The position numbers and the translations under genes are program-made. Below the pieces are notes generated by a model. The model had not been told where the DNA came from and did no database searches. It saw only the letters and a program-made list of their open reading frames with translations. From contig JAJDAX010000147.1 in the NCBI GenBank assembly GCA_029261615.1, forward strand, positions 1 to 5,677: a DNA stretch of 5,677 nt, given 5' to 3'. How positions within the stretch are numbered: the first letter of the stretch is position 1; the number at the start of each line of letters is the position of its first letter. Below, piece by piece: positions 1 through 5,677 of the stretch. This stretch comes from Nitrospinaceae bacterium (GTDB lineage Bacteria > Nitrospinota > Nitrospinia > Nitrospinales > Nitrospinaceae).

Positions 1-147
1 CAAACAAACTATGAAAGGTCTAGTTATCGCCTGAATACAACAGTTTCAGGCCTTAAACTAGGTGCTGTGACCAAAGTTGCATCCCCTGCATTGGAATCAG
101 AGCAAAACTGTCGCCAGGATAGACTCATTTCTGGCCTTAAGTTTTGA
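1..147 (+). CDS. C-terminal end of an unrecognised protein (5' partial)
   Basis: Frame 1 is open from the first base to a TGA at 145-147 and gives 48 residues ending in LISGLKF. I do not recognise the family. The peptide contains two similar pieces, VSGLKL and ISGLKF, which come from a DNA direct repeat (44-59 and 128-143, about 13 of 16 bases equal). T-rich DNA (153-190) begins six bases after the stop, as expected for archaeal transcription termination. A 48-codon open frame at a contig edge can occur by chance, so this is a tentative call. Composition is polar with no visible domain, membrane segment or zinc motif. The tail of a transposase or another accessory gene is possible, but nothing here demonstrates it. 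Confidence 0.35.
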   Translation, partial: QTNYERSSYRLNTTVSGLKLGAVTKVASPALESEQNCRQDRLISGLKF

Positions 148-152
148 AAACC

Positions 153-190
153 TTTTTTAATTTTTTATTATCTTTGATGATATTTTTTTT
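153..190 (+). terminator. T-rich terminator after the leftmost reading frame
   Basis: Three T runs follow the stop codon at 147: six T at 153-158, six T at 161-166 and eight T at 183-190. No stable hairpin precedes them. Archaeal RNA polymerase terminates at T-rich stretches without needing a hairpin, so this fits the end of a plus-strand transcript. It is weak evidence that the frame at 1-147 is a real gene. Confidence 0.4.
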
Positions 191-195
191 GAACC

Positions 196-224
196 AAAAA
201 AACCTACCCAGATCTGCCGGGTAG
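196..224 (-). terminator. Hairpin plus T-run terminator of the minus-strand gene pair
   Basis: Read on the minus strand, CTACCC (224-219), a 9-nt loop and GGGTAG (209-204) form a 6-bp stem. It is followed by GG and a run of seven T (202-196). It lies about 107 bases beyond the stop of the 141-aa gene, with no other gene between, so it probably ends the chimera/141-aa transcript. On the plus strand the stem is followed only by AATTTTCT, a much weaker terminator. The stretch from 225 to 330 holds nothing else I can identify. Confidence 0.5.
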
Positions 225-330
225 AATTTTCTAAGGCTTTCACATTCGAGAGGAATGCTAGTCTAAGTTGTCTTTCATTTTATAAAAAAACCTCTCAACA
301 ATTTTCACGGGTTAGCACAGGGTCCCCGAT

Positions 331-756
331 CTAGTTTTTCATTTGTCTTTGTTGCAACCACTTTACTATTCCAATTCCTCCTGCAACAGCCACTAACCCA
401 ATCAGGATCCATACCATTGTGTTATTCCAGTTAAAGTTGCCTCCAATGTCAACTCCTCTCTTTGCCAGTATGTACTGTCTAACTTCCTCGTGAGATTTGT
501 CTCTGAACTGCGGCAAATTTTTTAGTGTTTGCAGTGGAAAGTCTCGCGGCTTCTTGTCCGGCCCTCTCTGGCCCCTGTACCGTGAAGTTTCTGATTCTTC
601 TACTGTTTCGGAAGTTTCTCCGGAAAAATCCTCCGAGAAGTGTATTTTTCCGGTGTCTTGGTTTATTTTTCCGGTAACATCAATTATTTTTCCGGTGATT
701 TTTCCGGCATCATTTTCGATTTTTCCGGTAGCATCTGCTATTTTTCCGATAACCAT
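331..756 (-). CDS. Small tail-anchored membrane protein with N-terminal GKI heptad repeats
   Basis: This is a 141-residue protein of unknown function. Residues 1-40 are a repeat: GKI at positions 4, 11, 18, 22, 29 and 36, mostly as the heptad GKIxxxT. An acidic stretch with SETSE-type sequence (about 42-57) and a basic linker (RGQRGPDKKPRD) follow, then a short helical segment (FRDKSHEEVRQYILAKRG). A single hydrophobic segment at about 114-131 (VWILIGLVAVAGGIGIV) has lysine and arginine after it, so the protein is probably anchored by its C-terminus. The ATG at 756-754 is chosen because GAGGAGGTGA (775-766) lies nine bases upstream. The gene follows the chimera with a 4-bp gap and is probably cotranscribed and translationally coupled. 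The heptads are encoded by the same 21-bp DNA motif that forms a noncoding array at 2735-3145, so the repeat may exist at DNA rather than protein level. The SHEEVRQYILAKRG-plus-helix tail faintly recalls CcmH-like proteins, but there is no CxxC, so I do not name it. Confidence 0.7.
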   Translation of the reverse strand: MVIGKIADATGKIENDAGKITGKIIDVTGKINQDTGKIHFSEDFSGETSETVEESETSRYRGQRGPDKKPRDFPLQTLKNLPQFRDKSHEEVRQYILAKRGVDIGGNFNWNNTMVWILIGLVAVAGGIGIVKWLQQRQMKN

Positions 757-815
757 TTCATTAATTCACCTCCTCTGCAATCATAATTTCGGCATTTTTC
801 CGGTGATTTTTCCGA
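601..815 (+). repeat. 21-bp phased TTTTTCCGG repeats lying in coding DNA
   Basis: The motif TATTTTTCCGG or close variants recurs with the C of CGG/CGA at 609, 621, 634, 651, 672, 693, 705, 726, 747, 790, 801 and 813. Many steps are 21 bp (651-672-693 and 705-726-747) and others are 11-13 bp. All copies point the same way. On the minus strand they encode the GKI heptads of the 141-aa protein (601-756) and the last codons of the upstream chimera (780-815). The same motif forms the array upstream of the chimera. Units such as TATTTTTCCGGTAACATCA (664 onward) closely match TATCTTTCCGGTAACATTT at 2878-2896. Confidence 0.75.
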
Positions 816-2653
816 GAATTTTCTGGAAAATTACCTGAAAATACCTGCTTTAGTTTTTCAATTGTTTTACTTTGGAGTTTGGGTGATGGTGCATCTTTAC
901 TCCTGATTTTCTTTTGGATTGCCATCAAGTTACTTCTGGATATTCCAAACTTGCAGGAATCTCTTGGCCTAATTTCCAGTATCTTCTTCTCCAGATTGTC
1001 ATAGACTGTACAACTCTCATCTGAAGTGACACCTAGAATGTTGGAGGCATCAAGGTTTGCCACCTCCTTTCCGACATATTTTATCTGATTTTTGTCCATT
1101 TTCGTGCGTAATCTAGGCAACAAACCAACATCGCCACCAGATTTTGTCTCCCTGTGGTCGGCATAGTCATCCAATGTTTCACTCAACGGCTTCCAGTAGG
1201 GAGTAGTATCTGCAGAGTCTTGGAATTTTTCTCCAGTTGTATAGTTTGTAAACGGCATGTACTGTATACATTCTCTATTCTTTGCATCAAGGTATGGCAA
1301 GGTGGGAATTATCACATTTCCATTCTCATCTAGTTTGTATCCCGCACCGACAAGTATCTTGTTGAACGGTCTAAGATTGGGGAATCTTTTCAATACGTTT
1401 GGTGTCGTGATGCTCATCTTTGATACGGCATACTTGGAATTATACTTGTCAAGTATCTCTTGTTTATTCCCTGGGGAATAATGCATTGCAAGTATGTCCT
1501 GCCACCATCTCTCTGTATCAACGTCCAATAGGTGAGCCAAGCCATGAGATGTAAATTTGTGAATGTTGAATTTGTTTTTTGTATTATCATATTCAAACAA
1601 GACGTATCTCTTGGACGATACACCAAAGAACAAGACATTCTCCAATAGTTTCCCGTCATCAGACTTTTCAATCTTCATAATCTGTACATCATTACTGTTG
1701 TATGGATTTAGTTTCTGGAAAAATTTCTGAATCTCTTGTGCATGTTTTGGTGAAACCATGATACTGTCAGTATCCATGTAAGCTACGTATCCGTCTCTGT
1801 ATGATGTAACAATACTTTCAGCTGCTGCCAAAACCAATCTGGCTGCTGCAGGCAAGAACACACCAAGTATCGGATTAAAATGCTTTGCAGGAATTTCCTT
1901 TCTTACTAGAGAGTTTTGATCAACTGAAAATGATTCATCAATTCCATAGACTGTTACTGAATTGTCCTTGTCTGTCCAAAACAGTTTCTCGCTTGTGTTT
2001 CTTGGATTAAACTCTGAGGACCATTTTCCCTTGAAATAAACTGCATTTGTGATGACCATCCGCGTCGAATCATCCGTTGACCCTGGCGCCAATATGCTCT
2101 CTATCTTGTCATTTGTCTTTTCTTTCACCCAACTGTTTATCTTGTTGATGCCGTCATCTGTTACAAAGTCCACATTGTCTGCAGTGCTGGAATAGTGAGT
2201 TTTTGCAGTGTCTATGTAATTCTGTTTTATCTCATATCCGTCTTTTATCCACAACGCATTTGCAACCTGCAGATTGTACCAGTCATCCTTATGGTTGAAC
2301 CGTGATAGTAGTTCCGAAATTGCCTTTTGACGTTTTGCATCGTCGGATTCAAAACCAAATACCTGCTGCATCTCTGATGCTGTATTTTCTTTTGCACCCT
2401 CATATGCCATCGAAAAAGCAGTTGAGATGCTAAGAGGCGAGAAGAATATGTTTGACTTTTCATCTTTCTCTGTAATCTCCGAGTAAAACGCAAAGACAAA
2501 GTCCTTCTGCTCAGATGGGTTTATCGCAGAATCATCATTATTTACAAGAACATCTGAAGAGCCGTCTTCAGAAATATACAAAACACCAACGCCCAAAACT
2601 ATGAAAATTATTGCCAAAACAGATGCCGTGATAATTTTACCGGTCTTCAACAT
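761..2653 (-). CDS. In-frame chimera: serpin N-terminal half joined to family B DNA polymerase C-terminal part
   Basis: The 630-codon reading frame carries two unrelated families. Residues 1-235 are a serpin with an N-terminal membrane anchor (about 7-26). They show the serpin signatures SNIFFSPLSISTAFSMAYEGAK (about 67-88), LQVANALWIKDGY, INSWVKEKTNDKIESIL (about 172-188) and ITNAVYFKGKW (about 201-211). The serpin ends at about VTV 233-235, so the C-terminal half, including the reactive-centre loop, is missing and protease inhibition is not expected. From YGIDES (236 onward) the sequence is family B polymerase: the helix HFNPILGVFLPAAARLVLAAAE, motif C YMDTDS (292-297) and the KKRY-type motif SKRY (347-350), then a thumb-like tail. 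The exonuclease, motif A and nearly all of motif B are absent, so it cannot polymerise. The anchor would also place the polymerase part outside the cell. The ATG at 2653 begins a good membrane anchor. No stop or frameshift occurs at the join. The last 25 codons run into the repeat motif. It may be a recombinant pseudogene or a mis-assembly. Confidence 0.85.
   Translation of the reverse strand: MLKTGKIITASVLAIIFIVLGVGVLYISEDGSSDVLVNNDDSAINPSEQKDFVFAFYSEITEKDEKSNIFFSPLSISTAFSMAYEGAKENTASEMQQVFGFESDDAKRQKAISELLSRFNHKDDWYNLQVANALWIKDGYEIKQNYIDTAKTHYSSTADNVDFVTDDGINKINSWVKEKTNDKIESILAPGSTDDSTRMVITNAVYFKGKWSSEFNPRNTSEKLFWTDKDNSVTVYGIDESFSVDQNSLVRKEIPAKHFNPILGVFLPAAARLVLAAAESIVTSYRDGYVAYMDTDSIMVSPKHAQEIQKFFQKLNPYNSNDVQIMKIEKSDDGKLLENVLFFGVSSKRYVLFEYDNTKNKFNIHKFTSHGLAHLLDVDTERWWQDILAMHYSPGNKQEILDKYNSKYAVSKMSITTPNVLKRFPNLRPFNKILVGAGYKLDENGNVIIPTLPYLDAKNRECIQYMPFTNYTTGEKFQDSADTTPYWKPLSETLDDYADHRETKSGGDVGLLPRLRTKMDKNQIKYVGKEVANLDASNILGVTSDESCTVYDNLEKKILEIRPRDSCKFGISRSNLMAIQKKIRSKDAPSPKLQSKTIEKLKQVFSGNFPENSRKNHRKNAEIMIAEEVN
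766..775 (-). promoter_or_regulatory. Strong Shine-Dalgarno site inside the 3' end of the chimera
   Basis: The minus strand reads GAGGAGGTGA (775-766), an extended complement to the 16S rRNA 3' end. It is formed by the codons for EEV at the end of the chimera and sits nine bases before the ATG of the 141-aa protein. It decides that start over an out-of-frame ATG at 762-760, and it suggests the two genes were selected as an operon, with the downstream gene still efficiently translated. Confidence 0.7.
1930..1965 (-). other. Serpin/polymerase junction
   Basis: Family similarity changes between the codons for NSVTV (231-235, serpin-like FWTDKDNSVTV) and YGIDES (236-241, polymerase-like). The YG codons lie at 1948-1943. 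In family B polymerases motif B normally reads KxxxNSxYG. The chimera reads NSVTVYG here, so the serpin sequence NS followed by the polymerase YG imitates motif B. That could reflect a short shared sequence at the crossover point, of a few bases such as AAYTCAGT. This is inferred from general family knowledge, without an alignment. Confidence 0.55.
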
Positions 2654-2681: not shown

Positions 2682-2734
2682 GAATTCGATTGATTTGGAG
2701 CCTCTTTGATAGTTTGTCGTGATTTTTAGTTGTC

Positions 2735-3145
2735 TTTTCGGTATCAATTCGGAGTACTGAGTTATCAATTCGGCAATTCAGATTACCTTTTCGGCATCTT
2801 TTCGGTAAACAAAATTATCAATTCGGAGAGGAAGTTTATCAATTCGGCGGAACGATTATCTTTCCGGTAACAGAATTTATCTTTCCGGTAACATTTTCCA
2901 TCTTTTCGGGAAAATCTTCCGATAACACCGGACTGATAGCTATCTTTTCGGGGAACAAAAATGATTTTTTCGGAATGATATTGCATTTATCCGGATTGAT
3001 AATTCCGAGACTCTCGAGAGTTTGTCGAGATTTTCCGAAACTTTTGATCGCCAATCTATCTTTCCGGTGATTTATTCGAATATTTTGTCGAAACTTTTCC
3101 GAAAATCTCCGAGAGTTTTCCGAAACTATCGGATTGATACCGAAA
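2735..3145 (+). repeat. Helically phased TCGG/CCGG array upstream of the chimera
   Basis: About 25 short motifs, all in the same orientation, fill some 410 bp. The C of CGG falls at 2739, 2750, 2771, 2792, 2803, 2824, 2845, 2865, 2886, 2907, 2929, 2949, 2971 and 2992. The steps are 20-22 bp or 11 bp, i.e. one or two DNA helical turns. From about 3006 to 3141 the units are CCGA/TCGA types at mostly 9-14 bp. There are sub-families: TATCAATTCGG four times (2742, 2763, 2816, 2837), ATCTTTCCGGTAACA twice exactly 21 bp apart (2858, 2879) and ATCTTTTCGG three times. There are no unique constant-length spacers as in CRISPR. Two minus-strand open frames within it (ending at 2839 and 2783) are probably by-products, since the array extends beyond them in other phases. 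Possible roles are an operator or iteron-like protein-binding array, or an expanded low-complexity repeat. Confidence 0.8.
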
Positions 3146-3236
3146 AAATCACCTGATCGCAACAGAATCAAATATTGCCATTCTGAGAAAACTTAACGTT
3201 TGAATCCGTCACAGGGGTAGTTTTGTGTAGCAATGC

Positions 3237-3248
3237 TTAATAGATAAA
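3237..3248 (+). promoter_or_regulatory. TATA-like box of the small secreted protein gene
   Basis: TTAATAGATAAA is centred about 26 bases before the ATG at 3269. This is the position expected for a leaderless archaeal transcript starting at or just before the start codon. No Shine-Dalgarno site is seen before that ATG, which agrees with leaderless translation. Confidence 0.55.
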
Positions 3249-3268
3249 TTCCGATTTTTTTGATTATC

Positions 3269-3610
3269 ATGGTTAAGACACTGCTCATGCTACCTGCACT
3301 GTTACTTGTATTTGGAATGGGATTTGCATATGCTGAACCCCTTGATGATGCAAGTGTAACAGTGCTGAATTATGACGGAATCTCTGCCACTCTTAAGATG
3401 GAATGGAGCCCTGATGAGACAGTGACAAAGTATGAGATTGGATGTGTAAGCTGCATGCCAAACACTTTGGAAATGACATCTGAGAGCAGTATCATACTGG
3501 GTAATGTCACTTCGTTCCCAAATACATCAAACGCAATGCTTTACATTATTACGTATGACTTAGATGATGAAATTATTAATGCAAAACAGATTCTTGCAAC
3601 TCTCAAATAA
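3269..3610 (+). CDS. Small secreted beta-rich protein, possibly Ig/FN3-like
   Basis: The 113-residue product begins with a clear Sec signal peptide: a lysine at position 3, a hydrophobic core LLMLPALLLVFGMGF and a likely signal peptidase cleavage after AYA (residue 22). The mature ~91 residues alternate hydrophobic and polar residues (SVTVLNYDGISATLKMEW, MLYIITYDL) in the manner of an Ig- or fibronectin III-like beta sandwich. Two cysteines (59 and 62, GCVSCMP) could form a disulfide or bind a metal. NVT and NTS are potential archaeal N-glycosylation sites. The ATG at 3269 is preferred over an upstream in-frame TTG at 3260 because the TATA-like box fits leaderless initiation there. The gene stands alone between two phased arrays. 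No specific family or function is recognised; the fold is an inference from sequence pattern only. Confidence 0.8.
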   Translation: MVKTLLMLPALLLVFGMGFAYAEPLDDASVTVLNYDGISATLKMEWSPDETVTKYEIGCVSCMPNTLEMTSESSIILGNVTSFPNTSNAMLYIITYDLDDEIINAKQILATLK

Positions 3611-3627
3611 TTGATGAATCAGGCAAC

Positions 3628-3790
3628 ATCCAATTCACTCCACGTAGATATTTCTGGACAATGTCCGATTATGTCAAGCAATGTCAGATGATTTTTGTCC
3701 AATTCTGTCCAATAATATCCAAACATGTCAAGCATTGTACAAGATTGTCCAAGATTGTCCAGTCTAGTCCACAAATGTCAAACAATGTCC
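3628..3790 (+). repeat. 10-bp phased TGTCC decamer array
   Basis: From 3691 to 3790 every decamer block ends in TGTCC or a close variant: TGTCC, TGTCC, TATCC, TGTCA, TGTAC, TGTCC, TGTCC, AGTCC, TGTCA, TGTCC. The preceding five bases are mostly AAnAT, giving a consensus near AAGATTGTCC. The period is exactly 10 bp over ten units. Three more units (ATGTC at 3661, 3671 and 3681) have the same 10-bp period, shifted by 4 bp. ATCC at 3628 and CTCC at 3638 may be decayed members. A 10-bp period cannot stay in one codon frame, so the array is noncoding. It ends three bases before a TATA-like element, directly upstream of the zinc-finger operon, which suggests an operator on one face of the DNA helix. 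Confidence 0.85.
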
Positions 3791-3792
3791 AG

Positions 3793-3802
3793 AATTTTAA
3801 TT
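3793..3802 (+). promoter_or_regulatory. TATA-like box of the zinc-finger/cupredoxin operon
   Basis: ATTTTAATTC lies immediately after the last decamer of the phased array and about 25-30 bases before the ATG at 3828. That places a predicted transcript start around 3822-3828. A factor bound to the adjacent array would directly affect TBP/TFB recruitment. Confidence 0.45.
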
Positions 3803-3827
3803 CACGGGTAAAACATCAGGAGAACTT

Positions 3828-3866
3828 ATGAGCATTGAATTGAACATACAACAGCATGCAAGATAG
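3828..3866 (+). CDS. 12-codon upstream ORF, or displaced N-terminus of the zinc-finger gene
   Basis: ATG at 3828 starts MSIELNIQQHAR and stops at TAG 3864-3866, overlapping the start of the next gene in another frame. AGGAG (3818-3822) lies five bases upstream, and the TATA-like box is about 28 bases upstream, so this ATG has better initiation signals than the one at 3856. Removing a single base around the TAG would join the peptide to RISNILMKTKLKK of the zinc-finger protein. It could be a leader peptide with translational coupling, a true N-terminus broken by a one-base indel or sequencing error, or, less likely, a +1 frameshift site. Confidence 0.4.
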   Translation: MSIELNIQQHAR

Positions 3867-4251
3867 AATAAGCAACATCCTGATGAAGACAAAGCTGAAA
3901 AAAATTGCGGGGGTTTTGCCCCATTTCTCGCTGGATAATTCCGCTGCCGAACCCGAGGCATTCTGCGCAATGGGTCTGTTGTATTACAATACTGGGAAGA
4001 TGAGTGACAAGGACAAGTGGGAGGACCTTGATGTTCGCGGAGATTTTGAAATACTACACAAGAATTACGGGATTACACGAGAGCAGTTCAGGAAACTATA
4101 TCGTTGCCCTGCATGCGACAAATCGGAATTCGGACTAAACGAATTTCTGATACACCTTAATGACTACCATGATCCGAAGAACAGGCTAGCAGGAGTAATT
4201 CCTTTTACGTTCAAAGAGATCGGACAGATTCTTGAGAGGGAGGGACTGTAG
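3856..4251 (+). CDS. Small C2H2 zinc-finger protein
   Basis: The 131-residue product has a classical zinc-finger spacing near its C-terminal end: C84-x2-C87-x12-H100-x4-H105 (CPAC ... HLNDYH), with aromatic and leucine residues in the finger core. Before it lie a basic N-terminal helix (KTKLKKIAGVLPHF), an acidic middle and a helical stretch (GITREQFRKLYR) leading into the finger. A nucleic-acid- or protein-binding role is plausible from the finger alone; no specific family is named. In-frame stop codons upstream (TGA 3841-3843) leave ATG 3856 as the only ATG start in this frame, but it lacks its own Shine-Dalgarno site (see the upstream ORF). It is the first gene of a probable four-gene operon, 36 bp before the next gene. 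Being next to the decamer array, it is a candidate regulator of its own promoter, but this is speculation. Confidence 0.75.
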   Translation: MQDRISNILMKTKLKKIAGVLPHFSLDNSAAEPEAFCAMGLLYYNTGKMSDKDKWEDLDVRGDFEILHKNYGITREQFRKLYRCPACDKSEFGLNEFLIHLNDYHDPKNRLAGVIPFTFKEIGQILEREGL

Positions 4252-4287
4252 TGACAAACCAGACCATGATGTGACGGGCTGAAAACA

Positions 4288-4545
4288 ATGGATGTAAAAT
4301 TTCAAAACAAGACAATCAATTACGAGCTTGCAACGTTTGATGAGTTCCAGCTGGATGAGGACCTTGAATTTTGCTGCTACAGACTTCGCATAATGGATTC
4401 AAAATCCCCTTTATGGAACAAGAAGTCCGCAAAATTATGTTGGGTCGATGCAGTGTCGCAAGACGATGTGGTGTATTACCCGATAGACTTTTGCCCCTTC
4501 TGCGGGGAGAAATTTGAATACATCGAGGTAAATGATGAGAACTAG
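4288..4545 (+). CDS. Small CPFCG zinc-ribbon-like protein
   Basis: This 85-residue acidic protein of unknown function has a C-terminal CPFCGEKF motif (C69, C72), typical of one knuckle of a zinc ribbon. Other cysteines at 29, 30 and 51 could complete a metal site. There is no signal peptide or membrane segment, so it is probably cytoplasmic. It starts at ATG 4288, 36 bases after the zinc-finger gene, with no obvious Shine-Dalgarno site. Its 3' end overlaps the cupredoxin-like gene by 11-14 bases, which argues for cotranscription and translational coupling. Residues up to 65 resemble no family I recognise. Confidence 0.75.
   Translation: MDVKFQNKTINYELATFDEFQLDEDLEFCCYRLRIMDSKSPLWNKKSAKLCWVDAVSQDDVVYYPIDFCPFCGEKFEYIEVNDEN
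4525..4528 (+). promoter_or_regulatory. Shine-Dalgarno site deciding the cupredoxin-like start
   Basis: GAGG lies within the end of the CPFCG gene. Two adjacent ATG codons follow, at 4532 and 4535. The spacer is three bases to the first and six to the second, so 4535 is favoured. Confidence 0.45.
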
Positions 4546-5290
4546 ACTGTTGATAATGGTTGTAATTATTGCAATTGTTGCATCCAGTGCAGTAACATAC
4601 GTGCTTGTACCTGTAAAGTACACCGCATCATTTTATCCAGAATGGCTTTTAGACAACATGGATGCTGCTGAAAAACTCCGTGATTCATCCATCCCGATTA
4701 TTGGGATGGAGATAGATAGAAAGCTGGCTGTTTTGACAATATACATGACTGATGAGAATTCGGAAAAATACGTGCAAGAAATAGACGATTTGCTTGATGT
4801 CCCATTTGACATTCTGTCTGGAACACAATCACGGGAATTGCAATGCCTAAGAACATACAAAGACATTAGAGAAATTTCAAGAACTCATGATGCTGCGACT
4901 TCTGAAGGGCACGTAATAAGACATCAGAAAGACGCTGTCAACGAATATGTGGAATTGAAATGCCCTAAATTTTCAGATCTTGAGATTATGAGGAATAATT
5001 TGGAAAAGTTCTCTTTTGTCATAATTCCGCAAGGTGCAGTTATTGAGGGACGCGCATCATTGAATCCTCAAGAAATCACAGTGATGCCAGGGATAAACAA
5101 TACAATAATTTGGATTAATGAGGATGATACGGGACATGGATTTGTTAGTGATGACGGGGCTTGGGCAATTCCAAGGATTCTGAAACCGGGAGAATCATAT
5201 TCTCTTACATTTAATGAGCCAGGTATTTTCCCATACCATGGGAATCCGCATCCCTGGATAACGGGCAAAGTAATCGTATTGGAGGAATGA
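4535..5290 (+). CDS. Membrane-anchored cupredoxin-like protein lacking the copper-ligand Cys and Met
   Basis: From ATG 4535 the product has 251 residues (252 from 4532). An N-terminal hydrophobic segment (about 5-25, LLIMVVIIAIVASSAVTYVLV) is an uncleaved anchor or signal, placing the rest outside the membrane. A middle region of about 30-160 residues, with two cysteines (QCLRT, KCPKF), matches no family I know. The last ~85 residues are a cupredoxin fold of the plastocyanin/amicyanin type: beta strands NPQEITVMPGINNTIIWIN, a histidine in TGHGF (H201) and the C-terminal ligand loop FPYHGNPHPWITGKVIV. In copper-binding relatives this loop reads about YHCxxHPWM. Here Cys is replaced by Gly236 and Met by Ile242, while His201 and His239 remain. 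A blue type 1 site is therefore not expected. Thaumarchaea have many cupredoxins used in electron transfer; this one may be structural or bind copper differently. Confidence 0.8.
   Translation: MRTRLLIMVVIIAIVASSAVTYVLVPVKYTASFYPEWLLDNMDAAEKLRDSSIPIIGMEIDRKLAVLTIYMTDENSEKYVQEIDDLLDVPFDILSGTQSRELQCLRTYKDIREISRTHDAATSEGHVIRHQKDAVNEYVELKCPKFSDLEIMRNNLEKFSFVIIPQGAVIEGRASLNPQEITVMPGINNTIIWINEDDTGHGFVSDDGAWAIPRILKPGESYSLTFNEPGIFPYHGNPHPWITGKVIVLEE
5281..5285 (+). promoter_or_regulatory. Shine-Dalgarno site of the last gene
   Basis: GGAGG, made from the final codons of the cupredoxin-like gene, lies five bases before ATG 5291. It selects this start over the out-of-frame ATG at 5287, which meets a stop after four codons. 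Confidence 0.6.
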
Positions 5291-5677
5291 ATGAAGACTA
5301 GGCTTTTAGGACTTGTATCCGTCATTTTACTTTCAAGTGTCTTCGTCGGGGTTGCATACGGCGCAGTCTCCCTTGACAAGGGCACGTATACCTGGACTGA
5401 CAAGGTACACATCAGGGTAACGGAACACGGCCTGGATTTGGACGGAACGTCTGTCAGAATTTCCACGTCTGATCACCAGCTGAACAATTACAAGCTGTCA
5501 AAGGCAGGAAACGGACTGTATGTCGGAGAGATAACGCTCACGGGATTTTTGCACGATGTAGATGGTGACGGAAAACCAGACACCAATCCTCGCACAACGG
5601 GAACCGGCTCGAACAACGGTTTTCTGGAATCCCGAAGTGATGATGAGTTGAAAATATCCATAAGATTTGGAGACGGC
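5291..5677 (+). CDS. Secreted Ig-like protein with a calcium-loop motif (3' partial)
   Basis: The frame is open from ATG 5291 to the window end (129 codons) and continues beyond it. Residues 1-25 are a signal peptide (KTRLLGLVSVILLSSVFVGVAYGA), probably cleaved near the AYGA/VSLD boundary. The mature part begins VSLDKGTYTWTDKVHIRVTE, the opening strand pattern common in thaumarchaeal surface Ig-like domains. DVDGDGKPD (89-97) fits the DxDxDGxxD calcium loop, followed by TNPRTTGTGSNNGFLES, similar in style to repeats I recall from large thaumarchaeal surface proteins. It directly follows the cupredoxin-like gene with no gap. Codons here use more G and C at third positions (ACG, GTC, GGC) than in the genes before it. 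It is probably an S-layer-associated or other cell-surface protein. Full length and C-terminal sorting signal cannot be seen. Confidence 0.75.
   Translation, partial: MKTRLLGLVSVILLSSVFVGVAYGAVSLDKGTYTWTDKVHIRVTEHGLDLDGTSVRISTSDHQLNNYKLSKAGNGLYVGEITLTGFLHDVDGDGKPDTNPRTTGTGSNNGFLESRSDDELKISIRFGDG

Follow-up and report, generated by a model that had tools for sequence, protein, structure and literature searches.

An in-frame serpin/DNA polymerase chimera that looks like a by-product of casposon decay

The stretch of DNA analysed here (5,677 nt, contig JAJDAX010000147.1, hereafter the window) contains one reading frame that begins as a membrane-anchored serpin and ends as a family B DNA polymerase. 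Such a frame may be a new protein architecture, the product of a recombination between two genes, or a chimera made during library preparation or assembly, and the question is which of these the locus represents. The features on which the answer depends are the following, with the evidence for each in brackets.

1..166, no strand assigned: sequence to the left of the arm with the polymerase (found at 78-89% identity in five further genomes of the genus)
331..756, minus strand: 141-aa open reading frame encoding GKI repeats and, at its C-terminus, a hydrophobic segment (homologous to the post-polB gene of several related loci)
761..2653, minus strand: chimeric open reading frame, 630 aa (open reading frame listing; profile match of the serpin half; protein search with the polymerase half)
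761..1948, minus strand: 3' part of a casposon-type DNA polymerase gene, residues 236-630 (protein search; intact copies adjoin Cas1)
1950..1959, minus strand: crossover stretch CAGTAACAGT (junction alignment; 10-nt overlap of the best matches)
1949..2653, minus strand: 5' part of a membrane-anchored serpin gene, residues 1-235 (PF00079; identity to P0121)
2730..3162, plus strand: conserved terminal region of casposon-type elements, its last letters being ...CTGATCGCA (six similar copies with the same stop)
3163..5677, plus strand: flanking DNA beyond the element end, including a cupredoxin-domain gene at 4532-5290 (open reading frames, profile matches, comparison with other loci)

No full reading frame was recognised in stretch 1-166 in the two copies checked. 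The chimeric frame is flanked by dense short TTTTCCG-type repeats at 605-842 and 2690-3162, some of which have a 21-base step and encode the GKI repeats; tracts of this type also occur at element ends of other genomes. The tRNA and Rfam scans of the window at the gathering threshold gave no match, and two sub-gathering Rfam matches in 1-400, obtained with a permissive scan, were taken as chance.

Two partial genes in one reading frame

An earlier note on this DNA had described one frame at 761-2653 in which the N-terminal half of a serpin is joined to the C-terminal part of a family B polymerase, both proteins having lost essential parts. This description is borne out by the profile and protein searches. 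The frame starts with ATG and contains no stop. The Pfam search of the 630-aa protein yielded a single match, PF00079, covering residues 48-236 (profile positions 2-191 of 370, E = 2.9e-58), and solved serpins, e.g., serpin B3, align to about the same residues. The closest intact serpin among the matches listed (the best 120 of 422) is P0121, a protein of 413 aa with a full PF00079 domain, which is 98% identical to the chimera over 96% of its residues 1-245. Judged by sequence only, the first half of the serpin fold is present. The likeness to the serpin family ends at residue 235, and both the hinge and the reactive-centre loop are missing, a hinge-like KGTEAAAITA being found near the C-terminus of P0121. 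A working serpin requires the hinge and the reactive loop.

Residues 237-630 presented no Pfam match and a weak PHROG match to the DNA polymerase family phrog_1907 (E = 0.0022). A match to a single family over the whole protein was not found. The protein search with residues 237-630 listed 120 matches, the window protein among them. Many proteins 920-950 aa long align to these residues, with identities of up to 86%; P0002 (945 aa) is 83% identical across the whole polymerase half. This half corresponds to the last ~400 residues of a family B polymerase of ~945 aa. Full-length relatives contain, in order, LDCTSTYP (near residue 340), NTASYG (near 523-528) and YMDTDS, which we take to be motifs A, B and C. 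The chimera enters the polymerase near residue 546 of these relatives, after LDCTSTYP and NTASYG, and the exonuclease domain, motif A and motif B are all missing. Motif C (YxDTD) is kept as YMDTDSIM, which is found in every alignment row. A working polymerase requires motifs A to C. Some others of the 120 listed proteins (P0106, P0060 and P0080) also begin or end in unrelated sequence, into which part of the same polymerase reads in frame.

The polymerase is named casposon PolB mainly from its gene neighbourhood and from published papers: of thirteen polymerase relatives, one has a Pfam DNA_pol_B match and two match phrog_1907, and none of the relatives searched matched a solved structure. A phage or plasmid origin of the window was rejected, since the phages searched with the polymerase half and the plasmids searched with the whole window gave no match, and IMG/VR contained no relative of the polymerase.

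The junction

The window was compared by blastn with 96 loci. In twelve polymerase loci (L001-L012) the match ends at window positions 1957-1960, while five distinct serpin places begin at 1934 (L050), 1950 (L054 and L068), 1954 (L070) and 1959 (L057) and run rightward. None of the 96 loci matches at length on both sides of the junction. Polymerase loci L021, L047, L058, L060 and L066 stop earlier, being truncated or at a contig end, and more distant polymerase and serpin loci match in inner pieces only or not at all.

The coding strand at the join reads GACAATTCAGTAACAGTCTATGG, in comparison with CCAGTAACAGTCTATGG in the polymerase relatives L002 and L003, and with TCAGTAACAGTTAGG and TCAGTAACGGTTTCC in the serpin relatives L050 and L068, respectively. 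The piece common to both genes is VTV in the protein and CAGTAACAGT in the DNA, at window positions 1950-1959. All 10 nt are present in L002, L003 and L050; L068, the closest serpin DNA, has an exact run of only 7 nt in common with the crossover stretch. Among randomly drawn pairs of serpin and polB positions, at least 10 nt are shared in 4.5e-5 to 8.8e-5 of draws, and at least 7 nt in about 1e-3.

A 191-nt query across the junction, in which the shared stretch occupies positions 92-101, was searched against 250 genomes and yielded 17 matches in 12 of them, none of which spans the join. Six are on the serpin side, with ends at 30-117, and ten on the polymerase side, with starts at 77-95, in addition to one 23-nt match at 73-95. 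The best two matches, at 94% each, cover 1-101 and 92-191 and overlap by 10 nt. The window protein alone matches both families among the 239 listed proteins (for the serpins, the best 120 of 422). Intact serpin and intact polB genes were both found in related genomes, as the earlier note had proposed to look for; the same junction was not, there being no second copy in any of the 250 genomes or in viral contigs.

These results place the break at 1950-1959, in agreement with the switch within a few codons of 1948 that had been proposed, and the 7-10 nt of CAGTAACAGT that relatives of both genes have in common support the suggested crossover at a short shared sequence. The accompanying idea, that NS...YG imitates polymerase motif B, does not hold: the chimera's VYG is the polymerase's own and lies ~20 residues downstream of the true motif B (NTASYG). 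Mimicry was rejected as the cause of the join, given that intact polymerases have the true motif ~20 residues upstream of that point. An intein or intron was considered too and not supported, given that what precedes the polymerase part is a serpin that brings a start and leader of its own.

On the left, window positions 7-999 are similar to G002:C91 at 70%; on the right, the serpin locus L057 remains similar as far as 3162. Given that both arms continue into their usual neighbours, the window has one abnormal join.

Casposon-type elements around the two genes

The earlier note missed that both genes belong to casposon-type elements. By their titles, L001-L012 comprise ten Nitrosopumilus loci, one from Nitrosarchaeum (L010) and one from Phycisphaerae (L006). 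The last (JAJDDX010000210.1) is a Nitrosopumilus-type casposon contig in a Phycisphaerae-labelled MAG, where it is probably mis-binned. The gene order in L002 is Cas1, a 277-aa gene, then oppositely directed genes of 170 and 163 aa, polB and the post-polB gene; the Cas1 adjoining this intact polB matches PF01867 (E = 4.2e-60). The gene after polB occurs in related loci with or without GKI/GMI repeats, and the window frame at 331-756 is a homologue of it as found in L004, L006, L160 and L166. The boundary near 331 marks the end of the GKI gene, and evidence of an element end was not found there. According to the parts of the casposon literature covered here, Family 1 casposons contain Cas1, a protein-primed-type PolB and three to four small genes just upstream of PolB (Krupovic et al. 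2019, PMC6563490; Krupovic et al. 2014, PMC4046053), and tandem casposons are reported in Nitrosopumilus (PMC6563490). No Cas1 family was found among the scanned window proteins. Both halves of the chimera look casposon-derived, and the window is a casposon remnant at most.

The region at 2730-3162 (~430 bases) has six copies elsewhere that end at the same point, with ...CTGATCGCA or nearly so. In L007, a polB element, positions 13324-13352 resemble this end, the likeness consisting of a motif with four differences and of ~100 bases at 72%. No inverted partner of the window's end was found on its opposite side, nor was a duplication established. Among 95 genomes of the genus, the two intact serpins closest to that of the chimera lie between the conserved element end and Cas1. 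This arrangement is found in three loci with intact Cas1, in which other genes intervene and the serpin is 2.2-3.1 kb from Cas1: L181 (serpin 16831-18072, Cas1 12811-14043), L165 (8479-9726 and 12695-14020) and L180 (7516-8586 and 10821-12050), the L180 serpin presenting just 45% identity to P0121. The interval from the element end to Cas1 yielded no polB in the serpin-carrying loci, and L181, L165 and L180 possibly form a PolB-less casposon class with serpin cargo. The serpin-Cas1 link is not general, since the serpins of L183 and L184 have no Cas1 within the 40 kb examined. Among the 95 genomes, 15 have a serpin match (E 1e-3) and 22 a Cas1 match (E 1e-20), the latter perhaps being CRISPR Cas1 in some of the 22, where identity is 32-40%. 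In a Methanolobus contig (L030), a serpin (3600-4694, 38% identity to P0121) follows a polB 3' part (3-1631) on the same strand; this serpin, ~2 kb from a casposon-like polB, may represent a second lineage with a serpin near a casposon.

The 5' part of polB is missing from ten copies in the loci analysed (L172, L062, L114, L151, L047, L176, L045, L160, L108 and L060), in a count of matches at 48% identity or more. In all ten, the truncated gene is preceded by 400 bases or more of other DNA, and L114 and L151 lack the very end of the gene too. None of nine N-terminal matches at 60% identity or more is a polB that keeps its 5' part only, away from a contig end; some of the listed polymerase proteins are 3'-truncated.

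Fusions similar to the one in the window occur in two other genomes. Locus L166 (genome G003, chromosome record OX638319) presents an element end, a serpin with 45% identity to P0121, a Cas1-polB fusion and a GKI-type gene. In the fusion, Cas1 codons 1-43 are in frame with polB from residue 667 onward, the stretch common to the Cas1 of L169 and the polB of L003 at the join is ATGATGGAAT, a 10-nt match, and the frame is broken soon after the join. In L047, a 108-aa gene, which is intact in L184 and has a similar copy in L078, is in frame with polB near residue 664. Both partner genes encode an FEY...KN.F stretch at the join, and the polymerase part of the fusion contains stop codons. Considering the window together with the ten truncated copies, three of eleven 5' breaks continue the frame of a gene that could be recognised upstream, and for most of the others no such gene was recognised. 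This is about the one in three expected by chance, and selection for in-frame fusions was rejected as an explanation; the open frame across the join requires only such chance.

Origin of the chimera and related systems

The chimera probably arose by a microhomology deletion, over up to 10 nt, that joined two casposon-type elements of a Nitrosopumilus-like, marine ammonia-oxidising archaeon, an event that we infer to have happened in the cell. In the first element, an inward-directed serpin gene would have lain between the terminal region and Cas1; in the second, polB would have preceded the GKI-repeat gene. If these elements were tandem neighbours, the serpin end facing out at one side and the polB end at the other, a single deletion from mid-serpin to mid-polB would yield the window, with loss of the second half of the serpin, the Cas1 gene of each element and 58% of polB, counted from its start. 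The tandem model is prompted by orientation: with the same kind of element end as reference, the serpin and the Cas1 that accompanies it are directed inward and polB, in its own element, outward, so a deletion inside a single element of the kinds seen is not favoured. An intact tandem donor was not found, and in G003 successive polB and Cas1 elements have other orientations.

In comparison with six intact relatives, the polymerase half presents a dN/dS of 0.147-0.196, values among those relatives being 0.101-0.193; for the serpin half the values are 0.154-0.190 vs 0.199-0.246. Relaxed selection is not clearly visible in the polymerase half, in keeping with a recent event and not with an old pseudogene. 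Selection has acted on both halves for the greater part of their history, which does not imply selection on the fusion itself.

Of the readings offered in the earlier note, recent recombination is the one that fits best. A chimeric assembly had been held at least as likely as a real fusion, and we rate it weaker than recombination: that two real genes were joined in the test tube, by PCR or whole-genome amplification, or by the assembler, is possible though rather unlikely. The junction is known from one contig only, serpin and polB genes of this kind occur separately, even within one genome in G002 and G003, and template switching also uses short matches. However, usual assembler k-mers are longer than the ~10 nt shared at most, so an artefact would need a chimeric molecule; similar fusions exist in other genomes, one of them in a chromosome-level record; and each arm continues into its usual neighbours.

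A striking new architecture is weaker as a reading, given that the two similar fusions are decayed, and a functional fusion gene, in which the membrane-anchored serpin fragment and the polymerase part are together under selection, is highly improbable. Its 630 open codons and the low dN/dS of both halves (0.15-0.20) speak for it, although the latter perhaps reflects a history older than the fusion. Against it, the serpin ends ahead of the hinge and reactive loop, the polymerase lacks the exonuclease, motif A and motif B and is predicted, from the N-terminal segment, to be extracellular behind a membrane anchor, the two similar fusions contain a frameshift or stops, and the architecture is absent from all listed homologues. 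The product of the deletion, if made, is probably a non-functional membrane-anchored protein, and the chimera looks like a by-product of transposon decay, not a new kind of protein.

Casposon decay can hence yield long in-frame hybrid frames that mimic new architectures. A broader proposal, speculative and unlikely at present, is that Nitrosopumilus has a class of PolB-less, Cas1-bearing elements whose cargo, serpins for example, is secreted or membrane-bound, that short matches repeatedly allow these to recombine with PolB casposons, and that a casposase may still act in trans to move the hybrids, which keep both outer arms as the window does. Joins at short matches recur among the casposon genes of this genus and could be counted across genomes. 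Serpin genes beside a casposase would also provide a possible route for serpin movement between these archaea, where serpins have been proposed as sponge-symbiosis factors in the portions of PMC6790972 and PMC7848895 considered.

In comparison with inhibitory serpins (PF00079), the chimera has the first half of the fold but neither hinge nor reactive-centre loop; with its 413-aa archaeal relatives it shares the N-terminal hydrophobic segment. The covered portions of the same two papers report serpins in sponge-associated ammonia-oxidising archaea as proposed adaptations to sponge life. These secreted serpins come from the same archaeal group as the chimera's serpin, and casposons have no occurrence in either paper. 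Here, in contrast, the serpin is truncated, and in close relatives it adjoins a casposase. As far as the available text of PMC4046053 and PMC6563490 goes, Nitrosopumilus Family 1 casposons resemble the surroundings of the intact relatives in their ~920-950-aa polB with Cas1, small conserved genes upstream of polB and element-specific cargo genes, and a serpin is not named; the window differs in having no Cas1 and the 3' part of polB only. Within the literature covered, no paper naming both casposon and serpin was found, and serpin cargo of casposons may be unreported.

Casposons and their fragmentation are already known, as are transposon derivatives formed by deletion. Ds and KP elements arise by short-repeat deletions that leave the outer parts, to which the window's arms are alike. 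Unlike internal-deletion derivatives of DNA transposons, the two arms kept here appear to derive from different elements.
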